Shown: positions 26,173 through 61,516 of the stretch, in pieces
How positions within the stretch are numbered: the stretch's first letter is position 1
How the letters are laid out: the number at the start of each line of letters is the position of its first letter
From: Paraburkholderia agricolaris
GTDB lineage: Bacteria; Pseudomonadota; Gammaproteobacteria; Burkholderiales; Burkholderiaceae
DNA: 64,000 bases
Reading direction: 5' to 3'
Assembly (NCBI RefSeq): GCF_009455635.1
Contig: NZ_QPER01000002.1
Coordinates: 930,001 to 994,000, forward strand
Notes under the pieces: generated by a model
Told to the model about the DNA's origin: nothing
The model's input: only the letters and a program-made list of their open reading frames with translations
Database searches by the model: none
Made by a program: the position numbers and the translations under genes

Positions 26173-26182
26173 GGAGAACGAC

Positions 26183-28599: not shown

Positions 28600-28604
28600 C
28601 CGGC

Positions 28605-29396
28605 ATGCCCTACGCCGCAGTCAACGGTACCGAGCTTCACTATCGAATCGACGGGGACCGTCACGGCAACGCGCCGTGGATCGTGTTGTCGAATTCGCTC
28701 GGCAGCGATCTGTCGATGTGGACGCCGCAGGTCGCGGCTCTGTCCAAACACTTCCGCGTGCTGCGCTACGACACGCGCGGTCACGGTCATTCGGAAGCGC
28801 CCAAAGGTCCGTACACGATCGACCAGCTGACCGGCGACGTGCTCGGTCTGATGGACTCGCTGAAGATCGCCCGTGCGAATTTCTGCGGTCTGTCGATGGG
28901 CGGCCTTACGGGCGTTGCGCTGGCCGCGCGTCACGGGAATCGTCTCGAACGGGTCGTGCTGTGCAACACGGCGGCGCGCATCGGTTCGCCGGAGGTGTGG
29001 GTGCCGCGCGCCGCAAGGGCCCGCACTGAAGGCATGCTCGCACTGGCCGACGCGGTCTTGCCGCGCTGGTTCACCGCCGACTACATCGAACGCGAACCGG
29101 TGGTGCTTGCGATGATCCGCGACGTGTTCGTGCACACCGACAAAGAAGGCTACGCATCGAATTGCGACGCCATCGACGCCGCCGATCTGCGGCCTGAAGT
29201 CCCCGGCATCAAGGTGCCCGCGCTGGTGATCAGCGGCACGCACGATCTAGCCGCCACGCCGGCGCAAGGCCGCGAACTGGCACAGGCGCTTCCGGGCGCG
29301 CGCTATGTCGAACTGGACGCCTCGCATATTTCCAACATCGAGAGAGCCGAGACCTTCACGAAGACCGTGCTCGACTTCCTGACGGAGCAGAAATGA
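28605..29396 (+). CDS. pcaD: 3-oxoadipate enol-lactonase
   Basis: A 263-residue alpha/beta hydrolase that opens the enol-lactone to 3-oxoadipate. Catalytic triad motifs: Ser in CGLSMGGLTG, Asp in ISGTHDLAATP, His in LDASHISNIE. The strand HYRIDGDRHGNAPWIVLSNSLGSDLSMW is typical of PcaD. It starts 5 bp after pcaB and overlaps pcaC by 4 bp, so the three genes are translationally coupled. Confidence 0.93.
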   Translation: MPYAAVNGTELHYRIDGDRHGNAPWIVLSNSLGSDLSMWTPQVAALSKHFRVLRYDTRGHGHSEAPKGPYTIDQLTGDVLGLMDSLKIARANFCGLSMGGLTGVALAARHGNRLERVVLCNTAARIGSPEVWVPRAARARTEGMLALADAVLPRWFTADYIEREPVVLAMIRDVFVHTDKEGYASNCDAIDAADLRPEVPGIKVPALVISGTHDLAATPAQGRELAQALPGARYVELDASHISNIERAETFTKTVLDFLTEQK

Positions 29397-29794: not shown

Positions 29795-29828
29795 CCTGAA
29801 GCGCACGTTTCGCGAAGTGCGCTTCAGG
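29795..29828. terminator. Bidirectional terminator between pcaC and tetR-family gene
   Basis: A perfect 12-bp stem (CCTGAAGCGCAC at 29795-29806, complement at 29817-29828) has a 10-nt loop between convergent genes. The distal arm overlaps the stop codon of the TetR gene. The T tract is weak. Confidence 0.55.
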
Positions 29829-30525
29829 CAATCTTGCTGGTATTCATCACCGCGGTGTCGGCCGGCAGTTGCAAGCGCACCGCGCGCAACACCGTGTCCT
29901 TGATGACCTCGCGCCAATGCGCGAGGGCGGCCTTGTCCATCAGCGGCTCGCCGAGAAACGCACCCAGCGTGTACTGATTGGCGTTATAGAAATAACCGAG
30001 CGACGCGATCATCAGGTACACGTCACGCGCTTTGACGTCGGCACGAAAGACGTTTTGCGCCTGGCCGGCGTCGAGTAACTTCTGCACGACCGAAATTGCA
30101 TAGCCGGAAATCTCCTTCAGCTTCGACGATTTCTTCGCGTGCTTGCCCTGATGCAGATTCTCGCTCGACAGCAGCGTGACGAACTCGGGATGATCGAGGT
30201 AGTACTGCCAGACGAATTCGACCATCTGCTCGAGGCCATGCACGGGATCATCCAGATCGAGATCGAGCCTGCTTTCGGCCTCGTTGAACTGCGTGTAGAT
30301 CGTCTCCAGCACCTCGACAAACAACTGTTCCTTGCTGCCGAAGTAGTAATAGATCATCCGGTCGTGCGAGCGCGCGGCCTTCGAAATACTTTCGATTCGG
30401 CCGCTTGCAAAGCCTTGCTTGGCGAAGACCTTGATGGCCGCTTTGAGAATCTTGGCGCGGGTGTCTTGCGCCTGCTTCGCTCGGATGCCGATGGCGCCCG
30501 GCTTGCGGGCGGCAGTGGGACTCAT
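29824..30525 (-). CDS. TetR-family transcriptional regulator
   Basis: A 233-residue regulator. The N-terminal HTH (AKILKAAIKVFAKQGFASGRIESISKAA ... MIYYYFGSKEQLF) sits at about residues 23-75, and the rest is an all-helical ligand-binding domain. It is divergent from the nicotinate-like operon (about 390 bp between starts), where a perfect palindrome is found, so it most likely controls that operon and itself. Control of pcaBDC, convergent on the other side, is less likely. Confidence 0.88.
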   Translation of the reverse strand: MSPTAARKPGAIGIRAKQAQDTRAKILKAAIKVFAKQGFASGRIESISKAARSHDRMIYYYFGSKEQLFVEVLETIYTQFNEAESRLDLDLDDPVHGLEQMVEFVWQYYLDHPEFVTLLSSENLHQGKHAKKSSKLKEISGYAISVVQKLLDAGQAQNVFRADVKARDVYLMIASLGYFYNANQYTLGAFLGEPLMDKAALAHWREVIKDTVLRAVRLQLPADTAVMNTSKIA

Positions 30526-30785
30526 GGCGGTCTCGGATCTCTTTGTTAGCGTCGGGTTGAACGGCCTGCGCCGCAGCCGCTAAGCCAAGCTCGGATACGC
30601 TTGAGCACGGCGCGTCTTCATCATACAGCCCATATTGCGCGTGACGAAATGCTCGGCACGATCAGGTGCTTCGGGGTAGATTTGAAGCGTGATTCCTACG
30701 GCAATGTCGCGCCGCAGCATTCGCATGTTCACCGGGAAACTCGTTGCGCAGTCTATTTTGATCGAGTAGATTTCAAACAAGTTTG

Positions 30786-30803
30786 GTGTAGCGGATACTA
30801 CAC
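30786..30803. promoter_or_regulatory. Candidate operator (perfect inverted repeat) of the nicotinate-like operon
   Basis: GTGTAG-CGGATA-CTACAC is a perfect 6-bp inverted repeat with 6-bp spacer in the 30526-30919 intergenic region between the divergent TetR gene and the reductase gene, 117 bp before the preferred start. The size suits a TetR-type operator. No other gene is seen in this gap. Confidence 0.5.
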
Positions 30804-30919
30804 GAACGGTGAGTGACCGCAACATGGAAAAATGCGGATCACGCGAAAGTCCCTTTAAACAGGGGCGATTCGTCAGCCGGGCAGGACCGATTGTAATGTC
30901 GTCGTATGGGAACCCCACC

Positions 30920-32527
30920 ATGACAGAACATACGAAGGTCGATTTCGGTGCGGAGCGCGTCGACGGCGAAACCGCCTCGACACCAGGCCCGACCGTGCTC
31001 GAGAAAGCGATGCCGCGCAGCGAGCGAATGGCGTCGAACAAGATTGAATGCAATGCCTGCCCGGTGTTGTGCCAGATATCGGAGGGCCGCACTGGCGCGT
31101 GCGATCGTTATGCGAATGCGGACGGGCGGCTGATTCGCGTCGACCCTGTGGTGTTTCTGTCGCGCGCCGCGAGTTCGCCCGAAGCGATCACGAACAGTGC
31201 GGAGTCTACGGTCGAATTTGGTGCATCGTCCGAAGTACACGATCCTGCCGCGGAACAGGCGCTGTTCGTTACCGGCATTGGCGCATCCTCCACGTATCCC
31301 GACTACAAGCCCGCGCCGTTCATTGTTGCCTCGAGGCTCGACGACGTCGACATGATCACCGTCGTCACCGAGGGCATTTTCAGCTATTGCAGTTTCAAGG
31401 TGAAGATCGACACGGACCGCTTTCTCGGGCCGGAGCAATCGAACGTGCGTTGCCACGGCGAGATCGTCGGGCATGTGACGACGGCCGAATACGGCTCGCA
31501 GATGCTGAGCCTCGGTGGCGTTCATCATCTGACCGGCGGCAGCAAGAAAGAGGGCCGCGTCACGTGCGACATGATGCTCGCGCTCGGCAATAAGGAAGCG
31601 GTGGAGCTGACTATCGACGGCGGGGCGAGTCTCACGATTCGCGCGGGCGCGGCCCCGATTGTCGACGGCGTGGAAGAGCAGCGTATGCGGGTGGGCTGCG
31701 GGTCGGCCACCATTGGCATCTTCGCCAAGCAGTGGTTCGGCCACGTCGATGAAGTGGTGGTGGTCGACGATCACATCACCGGCGTGCTGACTGAACACCA
31801 GGCGGGCCGCTGCCTGGGCATGACGCGCTCAGGTCTGAAGATTCGCGGCCGCAAATCGACCCCCGGCCGCTATTTCCAGGTCGCGAATCCCGGCACCGGC
31901 TGGGGCGGCACCGACATTCAGGACCCGTTGGCGATTGTCGAAGGTTTCGATCCCGCTGTGGCAAAACCGGGTATGCGCTTGCTGATGGTGTCGACCACCG
32001 GCGAACACGCGCAATGGTACGAACTCGATCAGAATCTCGTGCCGCGTATCGCGGCCATGCCGGACGCCGTGCACCGCACGGTCGAACGAATCGGCGAGAA
32101 CTGTGAACCTTCGCTTGCGACAGTGCTGTTTCTCGGCGGCGCAGGCGGCAGCCTGAGAGCGGGAGCGACGGAGAATCCGGTCCTGCTGACGCGCGCGATC
32201 AAACAGAAGCTCGTCAACGTCACCTGTGGCGGCGCGCCCGCCTATGTGTGGCCGGGTGGCGGCATCACCGTGATGGTGGATGTTTCGCGTATGCCCGATC
32301 GATCGTTCGGCACCGTGCCGACGCCCGCGATCGTCGCACCGATCGAATTCACCATGACGTACGACGCGTATCGCGATCTCGGCGGCCATCTCGACGCGGT
32401 GCGGTCGCTGGCAAGCGTGCTGGCGAATGGGCCGGACCATACGGAAGGGGCGCCGCTTGCCCGCAGAACATTGGCGCGTCATCCGGACAATCCGTGGCCG
32501 CCCGCCATGCCGCCGATGCCGGGCTAA
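30920..32527 (+). CDS. 6-hydroxynicotinate reductase-like Fe-S protein
   Basis: A 535-residue protein resembling the 6-hydroxynicotinate reductase of nicotinate-fermenting clostridia, which reduces the pyridine ring to 1,4,5,6-tetrahydro-6-oxonicotinate. Near the N-terminus is a four-Cys cluster motif C-x2-C-x3-C-x9-C (ECNACPVLCQ ... GACDRY), probably a [4Fe-4S] site. Near residue 417 is SLRAGATENP, which partly matches the flavinylation consensus (DxxSGAT) recognised by ApbE-type transferases. ATG 30920 is preferred; in-frame GTG 30809, ATG 30824 and ATG 30896 are alternatives without good ribosome-binding sites. It is the first gene of an eleven-gene unit. Confidence 0.7.
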   Translation: MTEHTKVDFGAERVDGETASTPGPTVLEKAMPRSERMASNKIECNACPVLCQISEGRTGACDRYANADGRLIRVDPVVFLSRAASSPEAITNSAESTVEFGASSEVHDPAAEQALFVTGIGASSTYPDYKPAPFIVASRLDDVDMITVVTEGIFSYCSFKVKIDTDRFLGPEQSNVRCHGEIVGHVTTAEYGSQMLSLGGVHHLTGGSKKEGRVTCDMMLALGNKEAVELTIDGGASLTIRAGAAPIVDGVEEQRMRVGCGSATIGIFAKQWFGHVDEVVVVDDHITGVLTEHQAGRCLGMTRSGLKIRGRKSTPGRYFQVANPGTGWGGTDIQDPLAIVEGFDPAVAKPGMRLLMVSTTGEHAQWYELDQNLVPRIAAMPDAVHRTVERIGENCEPSLATVLFLGGAGGSLRAGATENPVLLTRAIKQKLVNVTCGGAPAYVWPGGGITVMVDVSRMPDRSFGTVPTPAIVAPIEFTMTYDAYRDLGGHLDAVRSLASVLANGPDHTEGAPLARRTLARHPDNPWPPAMPPMPG

Positions 32528-32536
32528 CAGCGACAC

Positions 32537-33544
32537 ATGACCGGCACGACGAACCCGATGAACGCAACGAATGCAAAGAGCGCAACGAACGCAACGAACG
32601 CAACGAGCGCAACCCGCGCCCAGCTCGACGCGGCCCGCTGGCATTGGCAGCATGGGCCGATCGATCTGATTCTCGGCGCGGACGGCGAACCCTCGGCGGT
32701 GCAGGCCGCATATGAGGCTTGCTGGGCACGCTTTGTCGACGTGTTGCCTGAGCTGGTCGGCGAGTTGAGGCTGCTTCGGCAACCTGTTCCAGGCCATGCT
32801 GCGCACAGCGACTGCGTGTTGAAAGGTCCCGTTGCCCGCCGCATGTGGAGCGCCAGTCATCCTCACCGTGCGCGTTACATCACGCCGATGGCGGCCGTCG
32901 CAGGGAGCGTCGCGGATGAATTGATCACGGCGTTCGCGCGTGAGGGTATAGCGCGCGCTTTCATTAACAACGGCGGCGATATCGCGCTCTACCTGACGGA
33001 AGGCCAACAGTATCGCGTGGGCGTGTTCGCCGATCTGGCGGGGTTCTCCGGCGCGAATTTGCCAGGCGATCAAGCTTTGGACGCCAACCTGACGCTCGAT
33101 GCCGCGATGCCGATTCGCGGCGTCGCGACCAGCGGCTGGCGTGGGCGCAGTTTTAGTCTGGGTATTGCCGACAGCGTCACGGTGCTCGCTCGCAACGCCG
33201 CCACTGCCGATGCCGCTGCGACGATAATCGCTAATGCCGTCAATCTGGACCATACCGGTGTTGTGCGCAGGCCGGCGTCCTCGTTGAAAGACGATAGTGA
33301 TCTCGGCGACATGCTCGTGACCGTTGACGTGCCATCCTTGCCGCAACCGTTGATCGACTTCGCGCTGGCGCGTGGCGTCGACGCGGCGCGGCGTTTGCAG
33401 GAACAGGGTTTGATCGAAGGCGCGGCGTTGTTCCTGCAAGGACGGGCACGGGTGGCGGGGATGCACTACCAGGACGCGTTGGTCAGCAATCGCGCCGGGA
33501 CGGCAAGCCCAGGTCAGCAACGTGAAACAGGCAACCTGAAATAA
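32537..33544 (+). CDS. UPF0280 family protein (ApbE-like, putative flavin transferase)
   Basis: A 335-residue protein of the UPF0280 family, related to ApbE. ApbE-like features: INNGGDIALYL (about residues 142-152), matching the N-x-GGD motif, and GVATSGWRGRSFSLGIADSVTVLA ... ADAAATIIANAV. The N-terminus (from about residue 8) is an in-frame 9-bp tandem repeat coding Asn-Ala-Thr units; an alternative start is ATG 32558. It lies 9 bp after the reductase gene, which suggests a maturation role, perhaps covalent flavin attachment to it. This is an inference. Confidence 0.72.
   Translation: MTGTTNPMNATNAKSATNATNATSATRAQLDAARWHWQHGPIDLILGADGEPSAVQAAYEACWARFVDVLPELVGELRLLRQPVPGHAAHSDCVLKGPVARRMWSASHPHRARYITPMAAVAGSVADELITAFAREGIARAFINNGGDIALYLTEGQQYRVGVFADLAGFSGANLPGDQALDANLTLDAAMPIRGVATSGWRGRSFSLGIADSVTVLARNAATADAAATIIANAVNLDHTGVVRRPASSLKDDSDLGDMLVTVDVPSLPQPLIDFALARGVDAARRLQEQGLIEGAALFLQGRARVAGMHYQDALVSNRAGTASPGQQRETGNLK
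32561..32614 (+). repeat. 9-bp tandem repeat (AACGCAACG)
   Basis: Six imperfect units of AACGCAACG run in frame at the 5' end of the UPF0280 gene, coding N-A-T/N-A-K/S-A-T. Being a multiple of three, unit-number changes would alter length without a frameshift. Confidence 0.8.
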
Positions 33545-33558
33545 GCAACGGAGGCTCC

Positions 33559-34149
33559 GTGTTCGAAATACGCCGCGTGCTGACGCACGTCGAAGACATT
33601 TTTCACGAGTTCGGCCCCGCACCCGCGCAGCCGTTGCGGCGCGGCGCGATTGCCGCGGTAATGACGAATCCGTTCGCCGGCCGCTACGAGGCCAGAATCG
33701 AGCATGCGATGGAAGCGCTCAAGCCAATCGGCTTCGACATGGCGCAACGGTTGCTGGCGGCGATGGCGGTGCCGCACGCATCGATTGAAAGCTACGGCAA
33801 AGGCGCAATCGTCGGCTCGCGGGGCGAACTCGAGCATGGCGCGCTGTGGCATGTGCCCGGCGGCTATGCGATGCGCGAATTGCTGGAGAAAAACGGCGTG
33901 CCGACTAACGCTATCGTGCCGTCGACCAAGAAAGTCGGCGCGCCTTCCACCGCGCTCGATGTGCCGCTCACACATGTCAACGCGAGCTACGTACGCAGCC
34001 ATTTCGACGCGATCGAAGTGCGTGTACCGGGCGCCCCCGCTGCCGACGAACTGGTGTATATCCTCGTGATGAGCACGGGCCAGCGCGTGCATGCGCGTGT
34101 CGGCGGCCTGGCGAAAGAGGCGATTGTGGGCAAGGACGGCTTGCGCTGA
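33559..34149 (+). CDS. AA_synth (DUF1185) family protein, copy 1
   Basis: A 196-residue protein of the AA_synth family (PF06684, name only; no established reaction). Conserved stretches are TNPFAGRYE, SYGKGAIVGSRGELEHGALWHVP and YVRSHFDAIEVRVPGAP. GTG start with ACGGAGG ideally placed upstream. It is paralogous to the next gene with clear block-by-block identity, so the pair may form a heteromer. Its position inside the N-heterocycle operon suggests it acts on a pathway intermediate. Confidence 0.8.
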   Translation: MFEIRRVLTHVEDIFHEFGPAPAQPLRRGAIAAVMTNPFAGRYEARIEHAMEALKPIGFDMAQRLLAAMAVPHASIESYGKGAIVGSRGELEHGALWHVPGGYAMRELLEKNGVPTNAIVPSTKKVGAPSTALDVPLTHVNASYVRSHFDAIEVRVPGAPAADELVYILVMSTGQRVHARVGGLAKEAIVGKDGLR

Positions 34150-34183
34150 ACGGCGTAACACGCATCGAAACCGGGAGAGTGAA

Positions 34184-34768
34184 ATGGCAATCAAGCTTCG
34201 CAAGCTGATCGTGCAGGTCGATGAAACACGCATTGAAATGGGGCAGGCCGTCGAACCACCGGCACGCCGTGCAGTCGCGATCGCGGTGATCGATAATCCC
34301 TACGCGGGCCGTTACGAGGCGAAACTGGACGCGCTGATCGAAGCCGGCGAGGAACTTGGCGCCTTGCTCGGCAACAAGTGTGTCGAAGCGCTCGGCATCA
34401 AACCGGGCGACGCGCAAAGCTACGGCAAGGCGGCGATCGTCGGCGAAGCGGGTGAACTCGAGCACGCGGCTGCGATCCTGCATCCGAAGCTCGGCGCTCC
34501 GCTGCGAGTCGCGGTTGAAAAAGGCGCGGCGCTGGTGCCGTCGGCGAAAAAAATGGGTACGCTCGGCACCGCGATCGACGTGCCGTTAGGCCATAAAGAT
34601 GCCGCTTTCGTGCGCAGCCATTTCGACGCGATCGAGGCACGTGTGTCGGATGCGCCGCGCGCGAATGAAATCGTCGTGGCCGTTGCTGTGACAGCCTCGG
34701 GCCGGCCGCTGCCGCGCATCGGCGGCTTGCAGGTGAGTGAGATCAAGGGCGAAGACGGTTTGCGCTGA
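34184..34768 (+). CDS. AA_synth (DUF1185) family protein, copy 2
   Basis: A 194-residue paralogue of the preceding gene product. Matching blocks are DNPYAGRYEAKLDALIEAG, SYGKAAIVGEAGELEHAAAI, PSAKKMGTLGTAIDVPLGHK and FVRSHFDAIEARVSDAP. No catalytic residue can be assigned from the family. The 34-bp gap carries GGGAGAG before the start. Tandem duplication followed by divergence is evident. It is co-transcribed with the ABC importer downstream. Confidence 0.8.
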   Translation: MAIKLRKLIVQVDETRIEMGQAVEPPARRAVAIAVIDNPYAGRYEAKLDALIEAGEELGALLGNKCVEALGIKPGDAQSYGKAAIVGEAGELEHAAAILHPKLGAPLRVAVEKGAALVPSAKKMGTLGTAIDVPLGHKDAAFVRSHFDAIEARVSDAPRANEIVVAVAVTASGRPLPRIGGLQVSEIKGEDGLR

Positions 34769-34786
34769 GCTATTTCAAGGGTCGCG

Positions 34787-36727
34787 ATGCTTTCGAATTT
34801 GCTGGTACAGCTGGTCAACGGGCTCGCCGATGCGTCGACGCTGTTTCTCGTCGCCGCCGGTTTGTCGCTGATCTTCGGCGTGACGCGCATCGTCAACTTC
34901 GCGCACGGCTCGTTCTATATGTTCGGCATTTACGTCGCGTATAGCATCGCGAGCCGTTTCGGCCATACCACGGGCGGCTTCTGGCTGTCGGTGCTGGCTG
35001 CCGCGCTGGTGGTGGCGGTGCTCGGCGCGCTGGTCGAAATGATCGTGCTGCGGCGCATCTACCAGGCCCCCGAGTTGTTTCACCTGCTGGCGACCTTCGC
35101 GCTGGTGCTGATCTTTCGCGACGCCGCGTTGTGGCTATGGGGTCCCGAAGACCTGTTTGGACCCCGTGCGCCGCATCTGGCCGGCGCGGTCGAATTTCTC
35201 GGCCATCCGCTGCCGACCTACGATATTGCGCTGATCGTGATCGGACCCGTGGTGTTGCTGCTGCTCTGGTATGCGTTGACGCGCACCCGTTGGGGCACGC
35301 TCGTGCGCGCCGCGACCCAGGATCGCGAGATGCTCGGCGCGCTCGGCATCAATCAGGCATGGCTGTTTACCGGCGTGTTTTTCGTCGGCGCATTTCTCGC
35401 CGGGCTGGGCGGTGCGCTGCAAGGGCCGCGGATGTCGGCGAATCTGTCGCTCGATCTGGAGACCATCGGCAATGCGTTTGTCGTCGTCGTGGTCGGCGGC
35501 ATGGGGTCGATTCCGGGCGCGTTTATCGCGGCGTTGCTGATCGCCGAGATCAAGGCGCTCTGCATCGGCATCGGGCATGTGTCGGTGTTCGGTATCGACC
35601 TGTCGTTGAGCCGTTTTACGCTGGTTGCGGAATTCGTCGTGATGGCGGTGGTGCTGGTGGTGCGGCCTTGGGGCTTGCTCGGGAAGGCGGGCGCCGCGGT
35701 GCGTGGCATGGCGGCACCTGAAGCGCCATTGAGGCCCGCCGGCAAGCGCCTGAAGTGGCTGGCGGCCATCGCCTTGCTGGTGCTGGTGCTCGCACCGCTT
35801 GCGGCCAACGCGTTTCCCTATATGCCTGTGCTGCTGGTTGAAATCCTGATCGCCGTGCTGTTCGCCACGAGTCTGCATTTCATCATGGGTCCCGGCGGCA
35901 TGCATTCGTTCGGCCACGCCGCGTATTTCGGCCTGGGTGCTTATGGCGCCGCACTGTTTCTCAAGGTTCTGAATCTGCCGATGGAAGCCGCGCTGCTGCT
36001 CGGCCCCTCGCTCGCCGTGGCTGGCGCGCTGGTGTTCGGCTGGTTTTGCGTGCGGCTTTCGGGCGTGTACCTTGCGATGCTGACGCTCGCGTTCGCGCAG
36101 ATCGTCTGGTCCGTGGTGTTCCAGTGGGACGATGTAACAGGCGGCAGCAACGGCATTCTCGGCCTGTGGCCGTCGAACTGGTTGTCGTCGCCGGTGGCTT
36201 TTTATTATCTGACGCTCGCCTGCGCCGTGGTGGGTGTGTGGCTGCTGCGCAAGATGCTGTTCTCGCCGCTCGGCTACGCGATGCGGGCGTCGCGCGATTC
36301 GGTGTTGCGCGCCGAAGCCATCGGCATCGACGTGAAACGTGTGCAGTGGGCGGCATTCGTCGTCGCGTCGCTGTTCTGCGGGCTTGCCGGATCGCTGTAT
36401 GCCTTCTCCAAAGGGACGATTTCGCCCGAGGTGATCAGCGTGAGCCGCTCCGTGGATGGCCTCGTGATGGTGCTGCTCGGCGGCTTGCAGACCTTGACCG
36501 GTCCGATTGTCGGCGCGGCGGTGTTCACCTGGCTGCAGGACACCGTCGCGCGGCAGACCGACTATTGGCAGGCGCTGCTGGGTTTCGCGATCCTGTTGCT
36601 GGTGATCGCGTTTCCGCAGGGGATCGTCGGTTTTATTCGCGAGCGGTTTGGCGACGATACGGTGGATAAGGCGGAAGATCGGGCTTCGGCGGCGTCGCAA
36701 GGTACGGCGATCAAGGAGGGGCTATGA
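34787..36727 (+). CDS. Branched-chain-type ABC transporter permease, LivH-LivM fusion
   Basis: A 646-residue polytopic protein joining both permease halves of a HAAT-type importer. The N-terminal LivH-like domain is about residues 1-300 (AAGLSLIFGVTRIVNFAHGSFYMFG, GGMGSIPGAFIAALLIAEIKAL). The LivM-like domain is about 320-620 (HFIMGPGGMHSFGHAAYFGLGAYGAALFL, MRASRDSVLRAEAIGIDVKRVQW, GGLQTLTGPIVGAAVF). Usually these are two genes; here they are one chain with a short linker. The stop overlaps the start of the first ATPase gene. Confidence 0.92.
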   Translation: MLSNLLVQLVNGLADASTLFLVAAGLSLIFGVTRIVNFAHGSFYMFGIYVAYSIASRFGHTTGGFWLSVLAAALVVAVLGALVEMIVLRRIYQAPELFHLLATFALVLIFRDAALWLWGPEDLFGPRAPHLAGAVEFLGHPLPTYDIALIVIGPVVLLLLWYALTRTRWGTLVRAATQDREMLGALGINQAWLFTGVFFVGAFLAGLGGALQGPRMSANLSLDLETIGNAFVVVVVGGMGSIPGAFIAALLIAEIKALCIGIGHVSVFGIDLSLSRFTLVAEFVVMAVVLVVRPWGLLGKAGAAVRGMAAPEAPLRPAGKRLKWLAAIALLVLVLAPLAANAFPYMPVLLVEILIAVLFATSLHFIMGPGGMHSFGHAAYFGLGAYGAALFLKVLNLPMEAALLLGPSLAVAGALVFGWFCVRLSGVYLAMLTLAFAQIVWSVVFQWDDVTGGSNGILGLWPSNWLSSPVAFYYLTLACAVVGVWLLRKMLFSPLGYAMRASRDSVLRAEAIGIDVKRVQWAAFVVASLFCGLAGSLYAFSKGTISPEVISVSRSVDGLVMVLLGGLQTLTGPIVGAAVFTWLQDTVARQTDYWQALLGFAILLLVIAFPQGIVGFIRERFGDDTVDKAEDRASAASQGTAIKEGL

Positions 36728-37533
36728 GCCTGCTGCGCGTATCCGGCCTCTCCAAGTCGTTCGGCGGCCTGAAAGCGGTCGACGATGTGTCCTTCGATCT
36801 TGAAGCCGGCCAGTTGCTCGCGCTGCTGGGACCGAATGGCGCGGGCAAGTCGACCTGCTTCAATATGGTCAACGGGCAACTGCAACCGTCGTCCGGTTCG
36901 ATTCGCCTCGACGATCGCGAACTGGTCGGCATGCGGCCACGCGATATCTGGCGGTTGGGCGTTGGCCGCACGTTTCAGATTGCCGCGACCTTCAATTCGA
37001 TGACCGTGCTCGAAAACGTGCAGATGGCCCTCGTCTCGCGCGAACGCAAAACCTTCGGCCTGTGGAAACCCGTGGGCTCGCGCTATGCCGACGAAGCGAT
37101 GACGCTGCTCGAACAGGTCGGCATGGGCGCCGACGCGAACCGCGCCTGCGGCGTGCTCGCTTATGGGGATGTCAAACGCGTTGAACTGGCGATCGCGCTG
37201 GCCAATCGGCCGAAGTTGCTGCTGATGGACGAGCCCACCGCCGGCATGGCGCCCAGGGAGCGCAACGAGTTGATGGCGCTGACGAGGCGTCTCGTCACGG
37301 AGTACAAGATCGGCGTGCTCTTTACCGAACACAGCATGGACGTTGTATTCGCTTACGCCGATCGCATGATCGTGCTCGCACGTGGCAAGCTGATAGCCGA
37401 GGGCGACGGCGAAACGATCCGCAACGACGCACGCGTTCAGGAAGTCTATTTCGGCACCGGCAAGACCTTCCAGCCATGCGCGCCGCTGCATGAAGCGGCA
37501 GGCGGCCATCCGGGACAAGGAGCGCTGCAATGA
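36724..37533 (+). CDS. ABC transporter ATP-binding protein (LivG-like)
   Basis: A 269-residue ATPase. Walker A is GPNGAGKST and Walker B is LLLMDEPTAGMAP. The signature region reads LAYGDVKRVELAIAL, as in LivG-type proteins where LSGGQ is replaced. The C-terminal segment resembles LivG (HSMDVVFAYADRMIVLARGKLIAEG). It overlaps the permease gene by 4 bp and the second ATPase gene by 4 bp, so all three are translationally coupled. Confidence 0.92.
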   Translation: MSLLRVSGLSKSFGGLKAVDDVSFDLEAGQLLALLGPNGAGKSTCFNMVNGQLQPSSGSIRLDDRELVGMRPRDIWRLGVGRTFQIAATFNSMTVLENVQMALVSRERKTFGLWKPVGSRYADEAMTLLEQVGMGADANRACGVLAYGDVKRVELAIALANRPKLLLMDEPTAGMAPRERNELMALTRRLVTEYKIGVLFTEHSMDVVFAYADRMIVLARGKLIAEGDGETIRNDARVQEVYFGTGKTFQPCAPLHEAAGGHPGQGALQ

Positions 37534-38243
37534 GCGAGCCGATGCTGAAGGTCTCCGGCCTCAATGCATTCTATGGCCGTGCGCATATTCTGTTCGACGT
37601 CGGCCTGGAAGTGGGCCGTGGCGAAGTGGTCGCGCTGATGGGCCGCAACGGCGCCGGCAAATCGACCACGATGAAAGCGGTGATGGGACTATTGCCGCGC
37701 CGTCAGGGCGAAGTGCGTTTTCGCGGACAGAACATCACGGCGTTGCCGCCTTATCGGATCGCCCGCATGGGCATGGGATTCGTCCCGGAAGATCGCCGCG
37801 TGTTTGCCGATCTGACGGTGATGGAAAACCTCGATACCGGCCGTCAGCCGCCGCGCGAAGGTGCGCCGCAATGGACGCCGGAAAAACTGTTCCGCCTGTT
37901 CCCCAATCTGGGCGAAATGCCCAGACGCCCCGGCGGCCAGATGAGCGGCGGCGAGCAGCAGATGCTGACCGTCTCGCGCACGCTGATGGGCAACCCGTAT
38001 CTGGTGCTGCTCGACGAACCGTCCGAGGGCGTTGCCCCCGTAATCGTCGAGCAGATGGCGAACATGATCCTCGAACTCAAGCGCGAAGGGCTATCGATTC
38101 TGTTGTCCGAACAGAATCTGCACTTCGCCGAGCTGGTTAGCGACCGCGCGTACGTCCTCGAAAAAGGGCAGATCCGCTTTAGCGGCACGATCGGCGAACT
38201 CGCAAAGAACGAAACAGTGAGGCGCGCTTATCTGAGCGTGTGA
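37530..38243 (+). CDS. ABC transporter ATP-binding protein (LivF-like)
   Basis: A 237-residue ATPase. Walker A is GRNGAGKST, the signature is MSGGEQQML and Walker B is LVLLDEPSEGVAP. Other LivF-type segments are MGMGFVPEDRRVFADLTVMENL and the C-terminal VLEKGQIRFSGT. With the LivG-like ATPase and fused permease it completes the import motor; the binding protein is the last gene of the cluster. The substrate is inferred to be the N-heteroaromatic acid degraded by the surrounding enzymes. Confidence 0.92.
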   Translation: MSEPMLKVSGLNAFYGRAHILFDVGLEVGRGEVVALMGRNGAGKSTTMKAVMGLLPRRQGEVRFRGQNITALPPYRIARMGMGFVPEDRRVFADLTVMENLDTGRQPPREGAPQWTPEKLFRLFPNLGEMPRRPGGQMSGGEQQMLTVSRTLMGNPYLVLLDEPSEGVAPVIVEQMANMILELKREGLSILLSEQNLHFAELVSDRAYVLEKGQIRFSGTIGELAKNETVRRAYLSV

Positions 38244-38316
38244 TTCCATCGGCGCACGAGGCGTGCAGGGTATGCGCGCATGCGGCGCCGGGCAGTCGTT
38301 GCGAAAGGAGAGGCAG

Positions 38317-39516
38317 ATGGCAGCAGAGACGTTGACAGGCTTGTCGGGCAAGGTTGCCGTAACGAACATCGGTCTGCTGTTATCCGGCGACATCGACAAG
38401 CCGATTCTCGATGCGAACACGCTGGTCATCGACGACGGCGTGATCGTCGCGATCGGCCGGGAGAAAGATTGTGACCTCGAAGGCGCGCGAACCACGGTCG
38501 ACTGCAAAGGTACCGCAGTCGCGCCGGGCCTGATCGACTCACACGTGCATCCGGTGTTCGGCGACTGGACGCCGCGGCAGAATCAGATGGGCTGGATCGA
38601 GTCGAATCTGAACGGTGGCGTGACGACCATGATCTCCGCCGGCGAAGTGCACTTGCCTGGGCGTCCGAAAGACGTAGTCGGCGTCAAGGCGCTCGCGATT
38701 ACCGCGCAGCGTTCGTTCGAAGGGATGCGCGGCGCGGGTGTCGGTGGCGGCGTGAAGGTCATGGCGGGCGCGCCGGTGATCGAGAAGGGCATGGTCGAAG
38801 AGGACTTCAAGGAGCTTTCGGAAGCGGGCGTGAAGCTGCTCGGTGAAGTCGGTCTCGGCAGTGTGAAGGGCGGCGAGGAAGCCGCACAGATGGTGGCGTG
38901 GGCCCGCAAGTACGGCATTCAAAGCACGATTCACACGGGCGGCCCGTCGATTCCCGGCTCGGGCCTGATCGACCGGGACGTGGTGCTCGCTGCCGACGCG
39001 GACGTGATCGGCCATATCAACGGCGGCCATACCTCGCTGTCCTATCGGCACGTATGCGATCTGTGCGAGCAATCGAGCCGCGCACTGGAGATCGTTCACA
39101 ACGGCAATGAACGGATCGCCCTGCTCACCGCGCGCCATGCGATCGAATTGAAGTGTCCGCACCGGATTATTCTCGGCACGGATAGCCCGGCGGGTTCCGG
39201 CGTGCAACCGCTCGGCATTCTGCGGATGATCGCGCTGATCTCGAGTCTCGCGGATGTCCCTGCTGAAATCGCCTTCTGTTTTGCAACCGGCAACACCGCG
39301 CGGCAACGCAATCTGCGCCAGGGATTGATCGAAGTGGGCCGTCCCGCCGACCTTGTCTTCATGGATCGCGCACAGCACACGGCGGCCGATACGCTGCTGG
39401 AAAGTGTGCAACTGGGCGATATTCCCGGCGTCGGCATGGTGATGATCGACGGGCTGATCCGCTGCCGGCGCAGCCGCAATACGCCACCGGCGACCGAAGT
39501 GCCGGTGGTGCTTTGA
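38317..39516 (+). CDS. Enamidase-like metal-dependent amidohydrolase
   Basis: A 399-residue amidohydrolase-superfamily protein resembling the enamidase of nicotinate fermentation, which hydrolyses 1,4,5,6-tetrahydro-6-oxonicotinate to 2-formylglutarate and ammonia. Metal-binding features: HxH in LIDSHVHPVFGDW (about residues 73-85), IQSTIHTGGPS, DVIGHINGGHTSLSYRHV and the catalytic Asp in IILGTDSPAGSG. ATG 38317 follows GAAAGGAG; an upstream start at 38263 is poorer. Co-occurrence with the reductase-like gene strengthens the call; dihydroorotase or imidazolonepropionase-like roles fit the context less well. Confidence 0.75.
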   Translation: MAAETLTGLSGKVAVTNIGLLLSGDIDKPILDANTLVIDDGVIVAIGREKDCDLEGARTTVDCKGTAVAPGLIDSHVHPVFGDWTPRQNQMGWIESNLNGGVTTMISAGEVHLPGRPKDVVGVKALAITAQRSFEGMRGAGVGGGVKVMAGAPVIEKGMVEEDFKELSEAGVKLLGEVGLGSVKGGEEAAQMVAWARKYGIQSTIHTGGPSIPGSGLIDRDVVLAADADVIGHINGGHTSLSYRHVCDLCEQSSRALEIVHNGNERIALLTARHAIELKCPHRIILGTDSPAGSGVQPLGILRMIALISSLADVPAEIAFCFATGNTARQRNLRQGLIEVGRPADLVFMDRAQHTAADTLLESVQLGDIPGVGMVMIDGLIRCRRSRNTPPATEVPVVL

Positions 39517-39547
39517 ACGCGCACCGCACGGCGTGGCCGGCACTCCC

Positions 39548-40054
39548 ATGAACCGTCCGGCGCCTCTTGCGCTGCACGTCAACGGCGCGACCCATCTGGT
39601 CAGCGCCGCTGCCGACACGCCGCTGCTTTATCTGCTGCGTAACGACCTCGCGTTGAACGGTCCGAAATTCGGGTGTGGTCTCGGCGAATGCGGCGCGTGT
39701 ACGGTGTTGCTCGATGGCATGCCGACGCGTTCATGCGTGACGACCGCGAAGGTTGCGCTGGGGCGCGAAATCACCACGCTCGAAGGATTGGGTACGCGTA
39801 CCGCGCTGCATCCGGTGCAGCAGGCATTTATCGAAGAACAGGCCGCGCAGTGCGGCTATTGCCTGAACGGCATGATCATGACCGCCAAGGCGTTGCTCGA
39901 TCGCGATCCGCATCCGGGTGTCGAAACGATTCGGCGGGAATTGTCGCGCAATCTCTGCCGCTGCGGCACGCATGTCGAGATCGTGCGCGCGGTCCAGCGT
40001 GCGGCGCAATTGCTTGCCGTGCAACCGGTGCTGGATAAGGGAGCGCACGCATGA
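39548..40054 (+). CDS. NicA-like [2Fe-2S] subunit of a molybdenum hydroxylase
   Basis: A 168-residue iron-sulfur small subunit of the xanthine dehydrogenase family. The plant-type cluster Cys are in KFGCGLGECGACTVLLDG with a further Cys at TRSCVTT; the second cluster is in QCGYCLNGMIM and CRCGTHVEIVRA. Size and partner match NicA of aerobic nicotinate degraders. It overlaps the large-subunit gene by 4 bp. ATG 39548 is preferred over an in-frame GTG at 39533. Confidence 0.88.
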   Translation: MNRPAPLALHVNGATHLVSAAADTPLLYLLRNDLALNGPKFGCGLGECGACTVLLDGMPTRSCVTTAKVALGREITTLEGLGTRTALHPVQQAFIEEQAAQCGYCLNGMIMTAKALLDRDPHPGVETIRRELSRNLCRCGTHVEIVRAVQRAAQLLAVQPVLDKGAHA

Positions 40055-43000
40055 CCGGGCCGGATTTCAGCGTCGATCGCCGGGCCGCGCCGCCGTCGCG
40101 GCAGCAACTCTACGACGCGCAGAGTGTGCTGATCGTCACGCGGCCGCCGCAGGCGCCGGCACGCGCGGCGGCTGGGCAGCCAGGGTCGCGCTCCGCATTC
40201 GTACCGACGCAAGCCGACATGTTTCTCGTCGTGCGCGACGACGGCAGTGTGGTGGCGTTCAACGGTCACGTCGATCTCGGCACCGGCATCGGCACAGCGC
40301 TCGCGCAGATCGTCGCGGAAGAACTGGATGTGCCGTTGACGCGCGTGTCGATCGTGCTGGGTCATACGAACGAGGCGCCGAATCAGGGCCCGACGATCGC
40401 GAGCGCGACGATCCAGATATCCGCCGTACCGTTACGGCATGCAGCCGCGCAAGCCCGGCAATTCTTGCTGGCGGAAGCGGCCGCGCGTTTGAAGGTCGGT
40501 GCGACGCAACTCGATGTGCGCGACGGCGTGGTCTTTCAACGTGACGACGACACCATCAAAGGTCTGAGCTATGGCGAACTGATCGCCGGCCGGCGTATTG
40601 AACTGACACTCGCCACCGACGCGCCGTTGAAATCACCCGACACGTACAGGATCGTCGGCAAGAGCTCGCCGCGTGTCGATATTCCCGCGAAGGCCACGGG
40701 AGAATTGAGCTTCGTGCACGACGTGCGCGTGCCGGGCATGCTGCACGGCCGTGTCGTACGGCCGCCTTATGCGGGTATCGCGCAGGGCGAGTTCATCGGC
40801 AATAGCCTGTTGCATGTCGATGAAGATTCCCTTCGTGACTTGCCCGGCATCGTCAAGGTGGTGGTGATCCGCGATTTCGTGGGTATTGCCGCTGAGCGCG
40901 AAGAGATCGCGCAGCAGGCGGTGAAGCGGTTGGCTGTGCGATGGAAAACAGTAGAAGGTTTGCCGCCGCTCGAAACCAGCGAGGAAGTGGAAGCCGCGCT
41001 AAGGGCCAATCCGGCCAGCCGACGCGATCTGGTGATCGAAGGCGATACCGACGCAGCGCTCGCGCAAGACCCGGCCCGAACGTTGGAACGCACCTACGTA
41101 TGGCCGTTTCAGATGCATGCGTCGATTGGGCCGTCGTGCGCGGTGGCCGACTACCGGGATGCGACACTGAAGGTCTGGTCGGGTACGCAGAATCCCCATT
41201 CGTTGCGAGCCGACCTCGCTCTGCTAATGGCGCTGGACGAAGCGCACATCGAGATCGTGCGCATGGAAGCGGCAGGGTGTTACGGCCGCAATTGCGCGGA
41301 CGATGTCGCCGCCGATGCCGCACTCCTCTCGCGCGCAACCGGCAGTCCGGTGCGTGTACAACTTTCGCGCGAAGACGAGCATGCATGGGAGCCCAAGGGT
41401 GCAGCGCAATTGATGGACGTGCGCGGCGCTTTAGGCGCGCAAGGCGAACTCGCCGCCTACGATTTCGCGACGCGCTATCCATCGAACGACGCCCCCACGT
41501 TGGCGCTGTTGCTTACCGGAACCCTCTCCGCGCAGCCGCAAGTCTTCGAAATGGGCGACCGTACGGCCGTGCCGCCATACGACTACCGGACCATGCGCAT
41601 TGTTTGCGACGACACGCCGCCGATCGTGCGCGCGTCCTGGCTAAGAGGCGTGTCCGCGTTGCCGAACACGTTCGCGCATGAGTCTTTCATCGACGAACTC
41701 GCGGCGCAAGCGGGCGCGGACCCCGTTGAGTTCCGGCTGAAACATCTCACTGATCCGCGTGCGATCGATCTCGTCAAGGCTGTGGCTGAGAAAGCCGGCT
41801 GGCAGCCTCGTACCGCCGCGTTTAAAGACGAGGCTCAGGAACAGGGCGACGTTGCGCGCGGCAGAGGTTTCGCGTACGCCCGCTACGTGCACAGCAAATT
41901 CCCCGGCTTCGGCGCGGCTTGGTCCGCGTGGGTCGCCGACGTCGAGGTGAACCGCAAGAGCGGCGAGCTGGCCGTGACGCGCGTGGTGGTCGGACAGGAC
42001 ACCGGCACGATGGTGAATCCGGACGGCGTACGCCATCAGATTCACGGCAATGTGATCCAGGCAACCAGCCGCGCGCTGAAAGAACGTGTGACGTTCGGTG
42101 AGAACGCGGTGACAAGTCAGGAGTGGGGCGCGTACCCGATTCTGACCTTCCGTGAAGTGCCGGTGATCGACGTGGTGATGATGCCGCGTCACGGCGAGCC
42201 GCCGATGGGCACCGGTGAATCGGCTTCGCTGCCTGGTGCCGCGGCGATCGCCAATGCGTTGTATGACGCGACCGGGGTGCGTTTTCGCAGGCCGCCATTC
42301 ACGCCTGAAACGATTCGCGCCGCGCTCGCCGATGCGCAAGCGGAGGAGGCCGCTGCACGCAGCAGGAAGCGCTGGCGGTTCGGCTTTCTCGGCACGCTCG
42401 CCGCGGGTGCGGCCGGTTGGCTGGGCGTACTGGCCATGTCGCCGGCAGCCATCGCGCCGATCGCGCCACCGCTCGCGAGCGCGTTCGCGCCCGAACTGGT
42501 GGCGCGCGGCAAGCTGCTCGCGTCGCTGGGTAACTGCGCGGTTTGCCATACCGCCCGCAATGGCGTGCCGAACGCGGGTGGCAAACCGCTCGAAACGCCA
42601 TTCGGCACCGTGTATAGCACCAACCTCACGCCCGATGGACTAACGGGTATCGGTACATGGTCGCTCGACGCCTTCGTGCGGGCGATGCGGCAAGGTATCA
42701 GCCGCGACGGGCATCGGCTGTATCCCGCGTTCCCCTACACGTCGTTCAAAAACACCTCCGACGACGACCTCAAGGCGCTCTACGCTTACCTGATGGCACA
42801 GACGCCGGTGCGCTCGCGGCCGCCGGAAACGAAGCTGGCGTATCCGTTCAGCGTGCGTCCGCTGATGGCCGTATGGAACGGGCTTTTTCTTGGACGCAAC
42901 CCTTTGCCCGCCGATACGGCGCAAAGCGCGCAATGGAATCGCGGCGCGTACCTGGTGAACGGTCTCGGCCATTGCAGCGCATGCCATACGCCGCGCAACG

Positions 43001-43665
43001 CATTCGGCGCCGAGAAAACCGGCGCCGCTTTCATGGGCGGCGGCGTGGCGGACGGATGGGAAGCGCCCGCGCTGTCGGCGCTTTCCAACGCGCCCGTACC
43101 CTGGAGCGAAGACGAGCTGTTCAGCTATCTGCGCTACGGCCACGCGCCCTTGCATGGCGTTGCGGCCGGGCCGATGGCGCCGGTCGTCAACGATCTGGCG
43201 GCTTTGCCCGACAGCGATATTCGCGCGATGGCCACGTATCTGGCCTCGTTGAATCCTCTCGAGGCCAACGCGGATCCGGCGGCAATGGCGCGTCAGTACG
43301 AGCAGGCCAGCACGATAACGGGTACCGCAAACGGTCTTGGTGCACGCCTGTTCGATGGTGCGTGTGCTGCCTGTCATCACACGGGTAGCGGGCCGCAATT
43401 GTTTGGTGCGCATCCGTCGCTGGCGCTTAACACGAATTTGCACAGTACGACGCCTGATAATCTGATTCGCGTGATTCTCGATGGTATCGGCTCGCCTGCG
43501 CGCCCCGAACTCGGTACGATGCCGGCTTACCGTGATAGTTTCAACGACGCTCAGGTCGCCGAACTCGTGTCCTATCTGCGTCAGCAATTCGCCGGCGGTA
43601 AACCGGCATGGCAGGACGTCACCGCGAGCGTTGCCAGAGTCCGCGCGGCACCGCAGGCAGAGTGA
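40051..43665 (+). CDS. NicB-like molybdopterin hydroxylase subunit fused to triheme cytochrome c
   Basis: A 1204-residue fusion. Residues ~45-760 are the Mo-cofactor subunit of the xanthine dehydrogenase family (GHVDLGTGIGTALAQIVAEEL, NQGPTIASATIQ, LRGVSALPNTFAHESFIDELA, PPMGTGESASLPGAAAIANAL). A hydrophobic helix follows near 775-800, then three cytochrome c modules with CXXCH sites CAVCH, CSACH and CAACH. This is the layout of NicB, which hydroxylates nicotinate at C6 and passes electrons through hemes to the respiratory chain. No separate FAD subunit is present, consistent with that route. The exact heteroaromatic substrate is inferred. Confidence 0.88.
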   Translation: MTGPDFSVDRRAAPPSRQQLYDAQSVLIVTRPPQAPARAAAGQPGSRSAFVPTQADMFLVVRDDGSVVAFNGHVDLGTGIGTALAQIVAEELDVPLTRVSIVLGHTNEAPNQGPTIASATIQISAVPLRHAAAQARQFLLAEAAARLKVGATQLDVRDGVVFQRDDDTIKGLSYGELIAGRRIELTLATDAPLKSPDTYRIVGKSSPRVDIPAKATGELSFVHDVRVPGMLHGRVVRPPYAGIAQGEFIGNSLLHVDEDSLRDLPGIVKVVVIRDFVGIAAEREEIAQQAVKRLAVRWKTVEGLPPLETSEEVEAALRANPASRRDLVIEGDTDAALAQDPARTLERTYVWPFQMHASIGPSCAVADYRDATLKVWSGTQNPHSLRADLALLMALDEAHIEIVRMEAAGCYGRNCADDVAADAALLSRATGSPVRVQLSREDEHAWEPKGAAQLMDVRGALGAQGELAAYDFATRYPSNDAPTLALLLTGTLSAQPQVFEMGDRTAVPPYDYRTMRIVCDDTPPIVRASWLRGVSALPNTFAHESFIDELAAQAGADPVEFRLKHLTDPRAIDLVKAVAEKAGWQPRTAAFKDEAQEQGDVARGRGFAYARYVHSKFPGFGAAWSAWVADVEVNRKSGELAVTRVVVGQDTGTMVNPDGVRHQIHGNVIQATSRALKERVTFGENAVTSQEWGAYPILTFREVPVIDVVMMPRHGEPPMGTGESASLPGAAAIANALYDATGVRFRRPPFTPETIRAALADAQAEEAAARSRKRWRFGFLGTLAAGAAGWLGVLAMSPAAIAPIAPPLASAFAPELVARGKLLASLGNCAVCHTARNGVPNAGGKPLETPFGTVYSTNLTPDGLTGIGTWSLDAFVRAMRQGISRDGHRLYPAFPYTSFKNTSDDDLKALYAYLMAQTPVRSRPPETKLAYPFSVRPLMAVWNGLFLGRNPLPADTAQSAQWNRGAYLVNGLGHCSACHTPRNAFGAEKTGAAFMGGGVADGWEAPALSALSNAPVPWSEDELFSYLRYGHAPLHGVAAGPMAPVVNDLAALPDSDIRAMATYLASLNPLEANADPAAMARQYEQASTITGTANGLGARLFDGACAACHHTGSGPQLFGAHPSLALNTNLHSTTPDNLIRVILDGIGSPARPELGTMPAYRDSFNDAQVAELVSYLRQQFAGGKPAWQDVTASVARVRAAPQAE

Positions 43666-43718
43666 AATCAGCGAACGCATTGCCGCACCGGATTGCTGCA
43701 ACTTGGACATGGCTCGCT

Positions 43719-43754
43719 GAAGGAATCACCGAACGAATCACCGAACGAATCACG
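43719..43754 (+). repeat. 12-bp tandem repeat GAACGAATCACC
   Basis: Three adjacent units (GAAGGAATCACC, GAACGAATCACC, GAACGAATCACG) lie between the NicB-like and binding-protein genes. Too few and too short for a CRISPR; possibly a regulatory or slippage repeat. Confidence 0.7.
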
Positions 43755-43818
43755 AAACGCTTCAACGCTTGATAAAAACGACCGCATTCCCGCAATCCTT
43801 TTGATAACGGAGAAACGC

Positions 43819-45027
43819 ATGACCACGCGCGCAGGATGGATCTCTCGCCTCACGGTTTCAACGGTTCTATCGCTCGCGGCTGTCGGCGCGAGCGCGCAGC
43901 AGACCATCAAGATCGGTGAGATCAACAGCTACAAGGCGCAGCCTGCCTTTCTCGGACCTTACAAGAACGGTTGGAATCTCGCGCTCGACCAGGTGAATGC
44001 GGCGGGCGGTGTCTTGGGCAAGCAGCTCGAAGTGGTGTCGCGCGACGACAACGGCAATCCGGGCGATACGATCCGTGTTGCGCAGGAATTGATTGCACGT
44101 GAGCAGGTGCAATTGCTGTTCGGCGGTTTCCTGTCGAACACGGGTCTTGCGTTGACTGACTTTGCCAAGCAGAAGAAGATTTTCTTCCTTGCGGCCGAGC
44201 CGTTGACCGACAAGATCGTTTGGGCCGACGGCAACAAATATACGTACCGTCTGCGTCCTTCGACGTACATGCAGGTCGCGATGCTGGTGCCCGAAGCGGT
44301 GAAGCTGAAGAAGAAGCGCTGGGCGCTCGTGTATCCGAACTACGAGTACGGGCAATCGGCGGTGGCGACGTTCAAGAAGCTGATGACGGCGGCGCAGCCG
44401 GACGTGCAGTTTGTCGCCGAGCAGGCGACGCCGCTGGGTAATGTCGACGCGGGCGCGGTCACGCAGGCGCTTGCCGATGCGAAGCCGGATGCGATTTTCA
44501 ACGTGCTGTTTGGCGCCGATCTCGGCAAGTTTGTGCGCGAGGGTAATACGCGGGGCTTGTTCAAGGATCGCAGTGTGGTGTCGTTGCTGACGGGCGAACC
44601 AGACTATCTCGATCCGTTGGGGGCGGAGGCGCCGACTGGCTGGATCGTGACGGGGTACCCGTGGTATTCGATCGATACGGCGGCGAACAAGAAGTTTGTG
44701 GATGCGTATCAGGCGAAGTACCACGATTATCCGAGGCTTGGGTCGGTGGTGGGGTATTCGGCGCTGATGTCGATTGCGGCGGGGATCAGGAAGGCTGGGT
44801 CTACGGATCCGGATAAGCTTGCTGCCGCGTTCAAGGGCTTAGGAGTGGATACGCCCTTCGGGCCGATTACTTATCGGGCTCAGGATAATCAGTCGACAAT
44901 GGGGGCGTTTGTTGGGGTTACCGGGGTTAAGGATGGGAAGGGGGTGATGACTTCTTATCGGTATGTGGACGGCGCTAGTGTGCAGCCGTCGGATGCTGAA
45001 GTTAAGAAGTTGAGGGCTGGGGAGTGA
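43819..45027 (+). CDS. ABC transporter substrate-binding protein (branched-chain amino acid-type)
   Basis: A 402-residue periplasmic type I binding protein of the LivJ/urea/amide family. The signal peptide (SRLTVSTVLSLAAVGASAQ) is cleaved near residue 23. Typical features are IKIGEINSYKAQ, KNGWNLALDQVNAAGGVLGKQLEVVSRDDNGNPGDTIRVAQEL and the hinge region LVYPNYEYGQSAVATFKKL. ATG 43819 follows AACGGAG; the longer upstream frame reads through the 12-bp repeat. It completes the importer encoded at 34787-38243 and ends the operon. Confidence 0.9.
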   Translation: MTTRAGWISRLTVSTVLSLAAVGASAQQTIKIGEINSYKAQPAFLGPYKNGWNLALDQVNAAGGVLGKQLEVVSRDDNGNPGDTIRVAQELIAREQVQLLFGGFLSNTGLALTDFAKQKKIFFLAAEPLTDKIVWADGNKYTYRLRPSTYMQVAMLVPEAVKLKKKRWALVYPNYEYGQSAVATFKKLMTAAQPDVQFVAEQATPLGNVDAGAVTQALADAKPDAIFNVLFGADLGKFVREGNTRGLFKDRSVVSLLTGEPDYLDPLGAEAPTGWIVTGYPWYSIDTAANKKFVDAYQAKYHDYPRLGSVVGYSALMSIAAGIRKAGSTDPDKLAAAFKGLGVDTPFGPITYRAQDNQSTMGAFVGVTGVKDGKGVMTSYRYVDGASVQPSDAEVKKLRAGE

Positions 45028-57505: not shown

Positions 57506-57568
57506 ATTGACTCGTCCGGAGTTGTCTCGCCGCGCAGACGTAAATTCTGTTGCGCCTGCTTCTATGTG

Positions 57569-61490: not shown

Positions 61491-61516
61491 ACTCACACTA
61501 ATCAACGGAGACATTC

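Follow-up and report, generated by a model that had tools for sequence, protein, structure and literature searches.

How nicotinate might be degraded by an aerobic hydroxylase coupled to a reductive opening of the ring, and which tasks could fall to the conserved AA_synth and UPF0280 proteins encoded beside these enzymes, are the questions raised by a locus of Paraburkholderia agricolaris. The stretch analysed, referred to as the window, comprises 64,000 nucleotides (G000:C2:930001-994000) of a two-contig genome of 8.7 Mb. It holds a system of 12 genes (29824-45027), a divergent gene for a TetR protein and eleven + strand genes (30920-45027), and its homologies indicate that the cluster is very probably an aerobic reductive nicotinate operon. 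The original prediction had described an aerobic NicAB hydroxylase joined to homologues of 6-hydroxynicotinate reductase (Hnr) and enamidase, and this hybrid was borne out: all the genes it named were found on the + strand, tightly spaced, and the families of all but Hnr were confirmed by Pfam, NCBIfam or PDB matches. It had also regarded the roles of AA_synth and UPF0280 as unsettled, in agreement with a literature search of titles, abstract openings and some passages, in which neither was given a role in the nicotinate pathway.

In the proposed pathway, the HAAT importer would bring in nicotinate, and NicAB would hydroxylate it to 6-hydroxynicotinate, with the electrons passing through the haems of the enzyme itself to the respiratory chain. 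Hnr, a putative Fe-S flavoprotein, would reduce 6-hydroxynicotinate to 1,4,5,6-tetrahydro-6-oxonicotinate (THON), the lactam of which would be opened by enamidase, giving ammonia and 2-formylglutarate. More speculatively, AA_synth would convert 2-formylglutarate into glutarate semialdehyde, to be used by dehydrogenases encoded elsewhere, and UPF0280, a cytosolic protein of ApbE fold, would install the covalent flavin of Hnr. Expression of the operon is probably governed by the TetR protein. For the steps from import to ring opening, the basis is homology to tested enzymes together with a published cluster, while the proposals concerning AA_synth, UPF0280 and the variants of ring opening are drawn from genome comparison.

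A probable nicotinate operon and its published relatives

The nearest structure to the periplasmic substrate-binding protein (SBP) is 3i45, a structure that probably holds nicotinate; no paper naming 3i45 was found. This likeness, together with the homology of enamidase and Hnr to enzymes of nicotinate fermentation, speaks against a different substrate degraded by the same chemistry, be it a substituted nicotinate or some other pyridine carboxylate. Such a substrate is improbable, although, according to PMC3511419, 6-chloronicotinate, a neonicotinoid residue, feeds the same route through 6-hydroxynicotinate.

The hybrid design itself is not new, and the window cluster joins aerobic reductive nicotinate clusters that have already been described. 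PMC3511419 (2012) reports the arrangement in Azorhizobium, Bradyrhizobium and Rhodopseudomonas and in a nicotinate-growing strain, the legend of Figure 4 naming A. caulinodans, B. japonicum, R. palustris and strain SG-6C; this last strain grows on nicotinate and 6-hydroxynicotinate and has an Hnr that shares 42% identity with the E. barkeri enzyme. The later route is described as running via glutarate. Since such a cluster was thus already in print, the observation is less new than the original prediction implied. That an aerobic half is combined with a clostridial one was rejected as an unusual feature, as the published arrangement also recurs in the loci kept here. THON and (S)-2-formylglutarate are named as intermediates in both E. 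barkeri and A. caulinodans in a passage of PMC9304392.

The cluster of Azorhizobium caulinodans, Bradyrhizobium and SG-6C shares with the window the hydroxylase, Hnr, ring-opening genes, an ABC importer and conserved unknown proteins, as far as the text of PMC3511419 describes it. A Hnr homologue, an enamidase homologue, Mo hydroxylase and cytochrome domains and an ABC importer were all found in the window. There are two AA_synth copies and a TetR regulator in the window, whereas ten genomes of genus g123 have a single AAS2-type copy in their Hnr clusters and MarR. Genus g123 may resemble Bradyrhizobium, and for the published clusters the comparison is with their description. The fermentation of nicotinate by Eubacterium barkeri, reportedly the subject of work by Alhapel in 2006, has Hnr and enamidase homologues in common with the window; it relies on a selenium enzyme where the window has an aerobic NicAB with haems, and its later steps, in which 2-formylglutarate is reduced and not decarboxylated, are without genes in the window cluster. 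The Pseudomonas putida nic cluster shares the NicA/NicB-type hydroxylase, whereas by Pfam families the eleven genes of the window cluster include no member of NicC, NicX, NicD, NicF or NicE type.

A scan of genomes of GTDB species gave at least 591 stretches encoding a Hnr relative, the best 80 of which, nearly all betaproteobacterial by their titles, were kept. Among these 80, with many contigs short, UPF0280 recurs in 79, AAS2 in 76, AAS1 in 72, enamidase in 70, NicA in 64 and NicB in 57, so the grouping of the genes is not due to chance.

A possible role of AA_synth after ring opening

The two paralogues AAS1 and AAS2 score well within AA_synth (PF06684; Table 1, against a Pfam cut-off of 27 bits). 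Within a set of 397 genomes, all of one phylum, the family occurs in 74, namely 37 of the 38 with Hnr and 37 of the 359 without it (Fisher 3e-30, ignoring shared ancestry). The AAS2 type is present in 23/23 of the Hnr genomes that bear enamidase and in 1/15 of those that lack it, the figures for the AAS1 type being 13/23 and 14/15. As the Hnr clusters of the ten g123 genomes contain AAS2 only, which in four of them is the sole AA_synth match of the genome, one paralogue, either AAS1 or AAS2, may be enough by itself. Furthermore, a reduction of 264 AA_synth sequences to 81 representatives, with one row of very long branch left out, showed eleven residues to be invariant in 80/80, across all the operon settings sampled; eight of the eleven are polar or charged.

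Away from Hnr, 55 stretches of 14-18 kb were fetched (20, 20, 8 and 7), and the gene order of 48 was listed with that of 12 Hnr stretches (60 in all), using mechanical open reading frames (ORFs), some of which are shadows; AA_synth of G373 (L153) is unlabelled in that listing, even though other searches found it, and one hit, G149:C12, is a fragment of 40 positions. A luciferase-like monooxygenase or an alpha/beta hydrolase lies nearby in 34 of the 62 cases of AA_synth without Hnr within 7 kb, and the full set, presumably akin to the trigonelline genes, consists of AA_synth, alpha/beta hydrolase, flavin reductase, luciferase-like monooxygenase and aldehyde dehydrogenase. Rhizobium pRL10 carries this annotated set followed by an ABC importer and succinate-semialdehyde dehydrogenase. 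As in the nicotinate clusters, AA_synth has ring-opening genes as neighbours there, together with dehydrogenases for semialdehydes or aldehydes; the ring would be opened by an oxygenase, and the pRL10 stretch shown has no Hnr or UPF0280. Moreover, two genomes that lack Hnr, G199 (L141) and G235 (L144), have AA_synth directly next to a homologue of enamidase with 42% identity. A further enamidase homologue, 44% identical, lies beside IclR and MFS genes on an actinobacterial plasmid (L239:9004-10164); no AA_synth is listed near it, and one may be concealed by the incomplete PLSDB table.

The nicotinate, distant-enamidase and trigonelline settings would have in common a 2-formyl or 2-aminomethylene dicarboxylate, and the Azorhizobium route is said to need a decarboxylation, according to work by Kitts of 1992. 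On these grounds AA_synth probably acts on the released 2-formyl acid, and we tentatively propose that it converts 2-formylglutarate, most likely by decarboxylation to glutarate semialdehyde. Several observations weigh against this. Other settings of AA_synth have FAH hydrolase or FAD monooxygenase neighbours and no obvious formyl acid, and one of the 38 Hnr genomes, G134 (L157), is without any AA_synth match while possessing the variant with hydantoinase A described below. In addition, HcdD, a DUF1185-like protein, is a homologue of TgnF, the stimulator of TgnE-dependent succinate semialdehyde oxidation, and every attempt to detect such an effect of HcdD failed, as reported in a passage of PMC7913881.

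The last result also favours the view that AA_synth is a sensor or an assembly protein without catalysis, a possible role as environmental sensor having been put forward in PMC2954203; nevertheless, eleven invariant residues, mostly polar or charged, in all settings sampled make such a role unlikely. A third possibility, credible while falling short of an even chance, is that AA_synth is no decarboxylase, being instead a RidA-like enamine/imine hydrolase or a tautomerase, with 2-(aminomethylene)glutarate as its substrate. The caprolactamase-like variant of ring opening would release an enamine, and AA_synth is retained in 14 of the 15 genomes that have this variant in place of enamidase; RidA has a Bacillus chorismate mutase-like fold. 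This same fold is given for AA_synth in PMC2954203. Against such a hydrolase, E. barkeri enamidase is described as bifunctional, both opening the ring and deaminating the product to 2-formylglutarate (PMC9304392), and yet AA_synth accompanies enamidase in all 23 Hnr genomes that bear it.

UPF0280 as a proposed partner of Hnr

Many of the listed Hnr homologues are named 6-hydroxynicotinate reductase in public sources, and the nearest named relatives among the listed matches belong to Paraburkholderia, while neither Pfam nor NCBIfam gave a family for Hnr and no PDB match to it was significant. Seven Cys are invariant in 41/41 Hnr sequences. UPF0280 follows Hnr directly in 79 of the best 80 loci, the contig of the 80th ending first, and within the 397 genomes it exceeds its cut-off in exactly the 38 with Hnr, adjacent to it every time. 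These counts take as present a Hnr split over two frames in G016, one with an internal TGA in G353 and a UPF0280 with one TGA in G332, all as assembled.

The UPF0280 protein reaches 402 bits against NF003322 (cut-off 290) and 27.7 bits in an ApbE-like Pfam match (cut-off 25.6), and the ApbE fold was recognized in it. ApbE flavin transferases use a Ser-His-Asp catalytic triad (PMC12052999); the fold and the active-site Ser and Asp of the ApbE/Ftp enzymes are shared by UPF0280, in which both residues, assigned to their triad positions from the alignment and their spacing, are invariant in 40/40 sequences. No other ApbE-family match was found in the genome of the window. These features render it rather likely that UPF0280 is the flavinylation factor of Hnr, installing its covalent flavin, and the co-occurrence of both proteins would explain how a cytosolic reductase could obtain such a flavin without a canonical ApbE.

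There are points to the contrary. The loop carrying the catalytic His of ApbE is deleted in the UPF0280 alignment, leaving the triad incomplete, and the flavinylation motif D-x-x-[S/T]-G-A-[S/T] occurs in 0/41 Hnr sequences, for which reason a canonical site in Hnr was rejected; none of the 11 cluster proteins of the window has it either. In both respects UPF0280 and Hnr differ from the ApbE/Ftp systems, and therefore the canonical ApbE chemistry does not apply. The covalent flavin of Hnr, which Alhapel is said to have reported in 2006, is itself a premise of the proposal. The missing His loop and the missing motif both favour a non-catalytic role, with UPF0280 as a flavin-binding partner, a chaperone or an FAD hydrolase for Hnr and no transfer of flavin. 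We regard this as possible but not probable: the invariant Ser and Asp, and a genome otherwise devoid of ApbE-family matches, stand against it.

Hnr was also found on 26 PLSDB plasmids of Sulfitobacter, Rhizobium, Pleomorphomonas and others (for example L181, L182 and L186). As it is plasmid-borne, and as the rest of the cluster accompanies Hnr in the three plasmids read, the cluster is probably mobile. In 17/38 clusters, and on both Sulfitobacter plasmids read, Hnr has a gene for ferredoxin-NADP reductase in its vicinity, and none was found around the cluster of the window; the electron donor of Hnr would be reduced ferredoxin or NADPH.

Two probable ways of opening the ring

The alignment of the enamidase homologue to 2vun covers nearly the whole chain and keeps HxH, two later His and the Asp of GxD, which we take to be the metal ligands. 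A general amidohydrolase was rejected, the other PDB matches at E<=0.001 being no better than 1.8e-5. Among 75 genomes checked (38 with Hnr and 37 with AA_synth alone), true enamidase (>=60% identity) is present in 23 of the 38 with Hnr and absent from 15. A hydantoinase-A homologue (HydA, >=62% identity) is found in 17/38, comprising all 15 without enamidase together with G122 and G170, and the remaining 21 have no HydA match at E 1e-100 or better above 46% identity (Fisher 9e-9; 1e-4 at the level of genus). HydA lies within the stretch fetched, about 9 kb on either side of Hnr, in 9/15 enamidase-lacking and 0/23 enamidase-bearing genomes; in L162, HydA is at 1752-3833 and HydB at 3674-5515. 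In G122 (L156) and G170 (L218), an AAS1-AAS2-enamidase block is on another contig than the Hnr-UPF0280-AAS1 cluster, and a HydA homologue occurs too.

The Pleomorphomonas plasmid (L181:9983-16855) illustrates the variant, with, in this order, Hnr, UPF0280, AA_synth, HydA, HydB and a NicR-named regulator and with no adjacent hydroxylase; its annotation gives HydA and HydB as the acetophenone carboxylase subunits apc3 and apc4, and UPF0280 and AA_synth as hypothetical. The nearest curated families are caprolactamase alpha for HydA and caprolactamase beta for HydB, at 505 and 321 of 1000 bits, well below cut-off. ATP-dependent opening of delta-valerolactam is known from the bacterial oxoprolinases OplA/OplB (PMC11033972). 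Given this chemistry, the likeness to caprolactamase and the distribution of HydA and enamidase, the Hnr genomes without enamidase probably use a lactam hydrolase that depends on ATP in its place. Since both forms occur within families f46 and f63, replacement of the ring-opening step more than once is suggested.

The proposals may be combined: AA_synth as a general processing enzyme, likely a decarboxylase, for 2-formyl dicarboxylates (2-formylglutarate from nicotinate, 2-formylsuccinate from trigonelline), UPF0280 as a His-less ApbE flavinylating Hnr at a noncanonical site, and a caprolactamase-like, ATP-dependent opening of THON in roughly two fifths of the genomes with Hnr. That all three hold together is rather unlikely. 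If they did, AA_synth would account for the decarboxylation that has been recognized since the studies of Azorhizobium, and PF06684, a family with solved structures and no assigned reaction, would gain a function. PF06684 and the UPF0280 subfamily NF003322, two families without an assigned function, gain specific and cheap tests within a pathway of largely known chemistry.

Layout, hydroxylase and regulator

The eleven + strand genes are closely packed, the distance from one to the next being -4 to 73 bases except before the last gene, where it is 153. Better start codons were chosen for Hnr (30920), AAS2 (34184), enamidase (38317) and SBP (43819). As to the extent of the cluster, the genes originally predicted stood, while the start given, 30786, is intergenic and the divergent TetR gene had been overlooked. 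In 69 of the best 80 loci this gene lies no more than 3 kb upstream of Hnr in divergent orientation, and it is therefore counted in the system; it occurs somewhere in 72, and six of the eight loci without it have less than 1.3 kb of contig upstream.

Table 1. Genes of the putative nicotinate system in the window, in order of position
Feature	Position	Strand	Basis
TetR-family regulator, likely regulator of the operon	29824..30525	-	TetR_N + TetR_C_29
Hnr, 6-hydroxynicotinate reductase homologue, 535 aa, putative cytosolic Fe-S protein	30920..32527	+	homologue names; 7 invariant Cys
UPF0280, ApbE-fold protein, 335 aa; proposed Hnr flavinylation factor	32537..33544	+	ApbE-like Pfam + NF003322
AAS1, AA_synth (PF06684) paralogue 1	33559..34149	+	220 bits; own clade
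AAS2, AA_synth (PF06684) paralogue 2	34184..34768	+	234 bits for the longer ORF 34091-34768
Fused HAAT permease, LivH-LivM type	34787..36727	+	BPD_transp_2 in two stretches; UrtB-like + UrtC-like halves
HAAT ATPase, LivG type	36724..37533	+	family searches
HAAT ATPase, LivF type	37530..38243	+	family searches
Enamidase homologue, 399 aa	38317..39516	+	E=3.7e-109 to 2vun ENAMIDASE, residues 30-413 of 417-aa ORF
NicA-type [2Fe-2S] subunit	39533..40054	+	Fer2 + Fer2_2
NicB-type Mo hydroxylase subunit, C-terminal triheme cytochrome, 1204 aa	40051..43665	+	MoCoBD_1/2 + cytochrome c; 3 CxxCH
Periplasmic SBP of the importer	43819..45027	+	E=2.9e-147 to 3i45

The CxxCH motifs of NicB are at residues 829, 975 and 1105, and among stretches of 19 residues the one of highest hydrophobicity begins at residue 777, where the Mo half and the cytochrome half adjoin. 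The hydroxylase is exchangeable, since an XDH-like enzyme, with a fused FeS-Mo subunit and a FAD subunit beside it, takes the place of NicAB in 20/38 clusters.

Elsewhere in the window, a CoA transferase, a lyase of adenylosuccinate/3-carboxymuconate type and an alpha/beta hydrolase are encoded just upstream (25396-29396, +), probably as a beta-ketoadipate branch, and an integrase-core (rve) transposase-like gene (22211-23233, +) is close to the catabolic block. A second aromatic-catabolism locus (56546-63602) encodes a Fer2 reductase, a Rieske oxygenase, an aldehyde dehydrogenase, a GntR-FCD regulator, an Amidohydro_2 protein and a LigB-type ring-cleavage dioxygenase.

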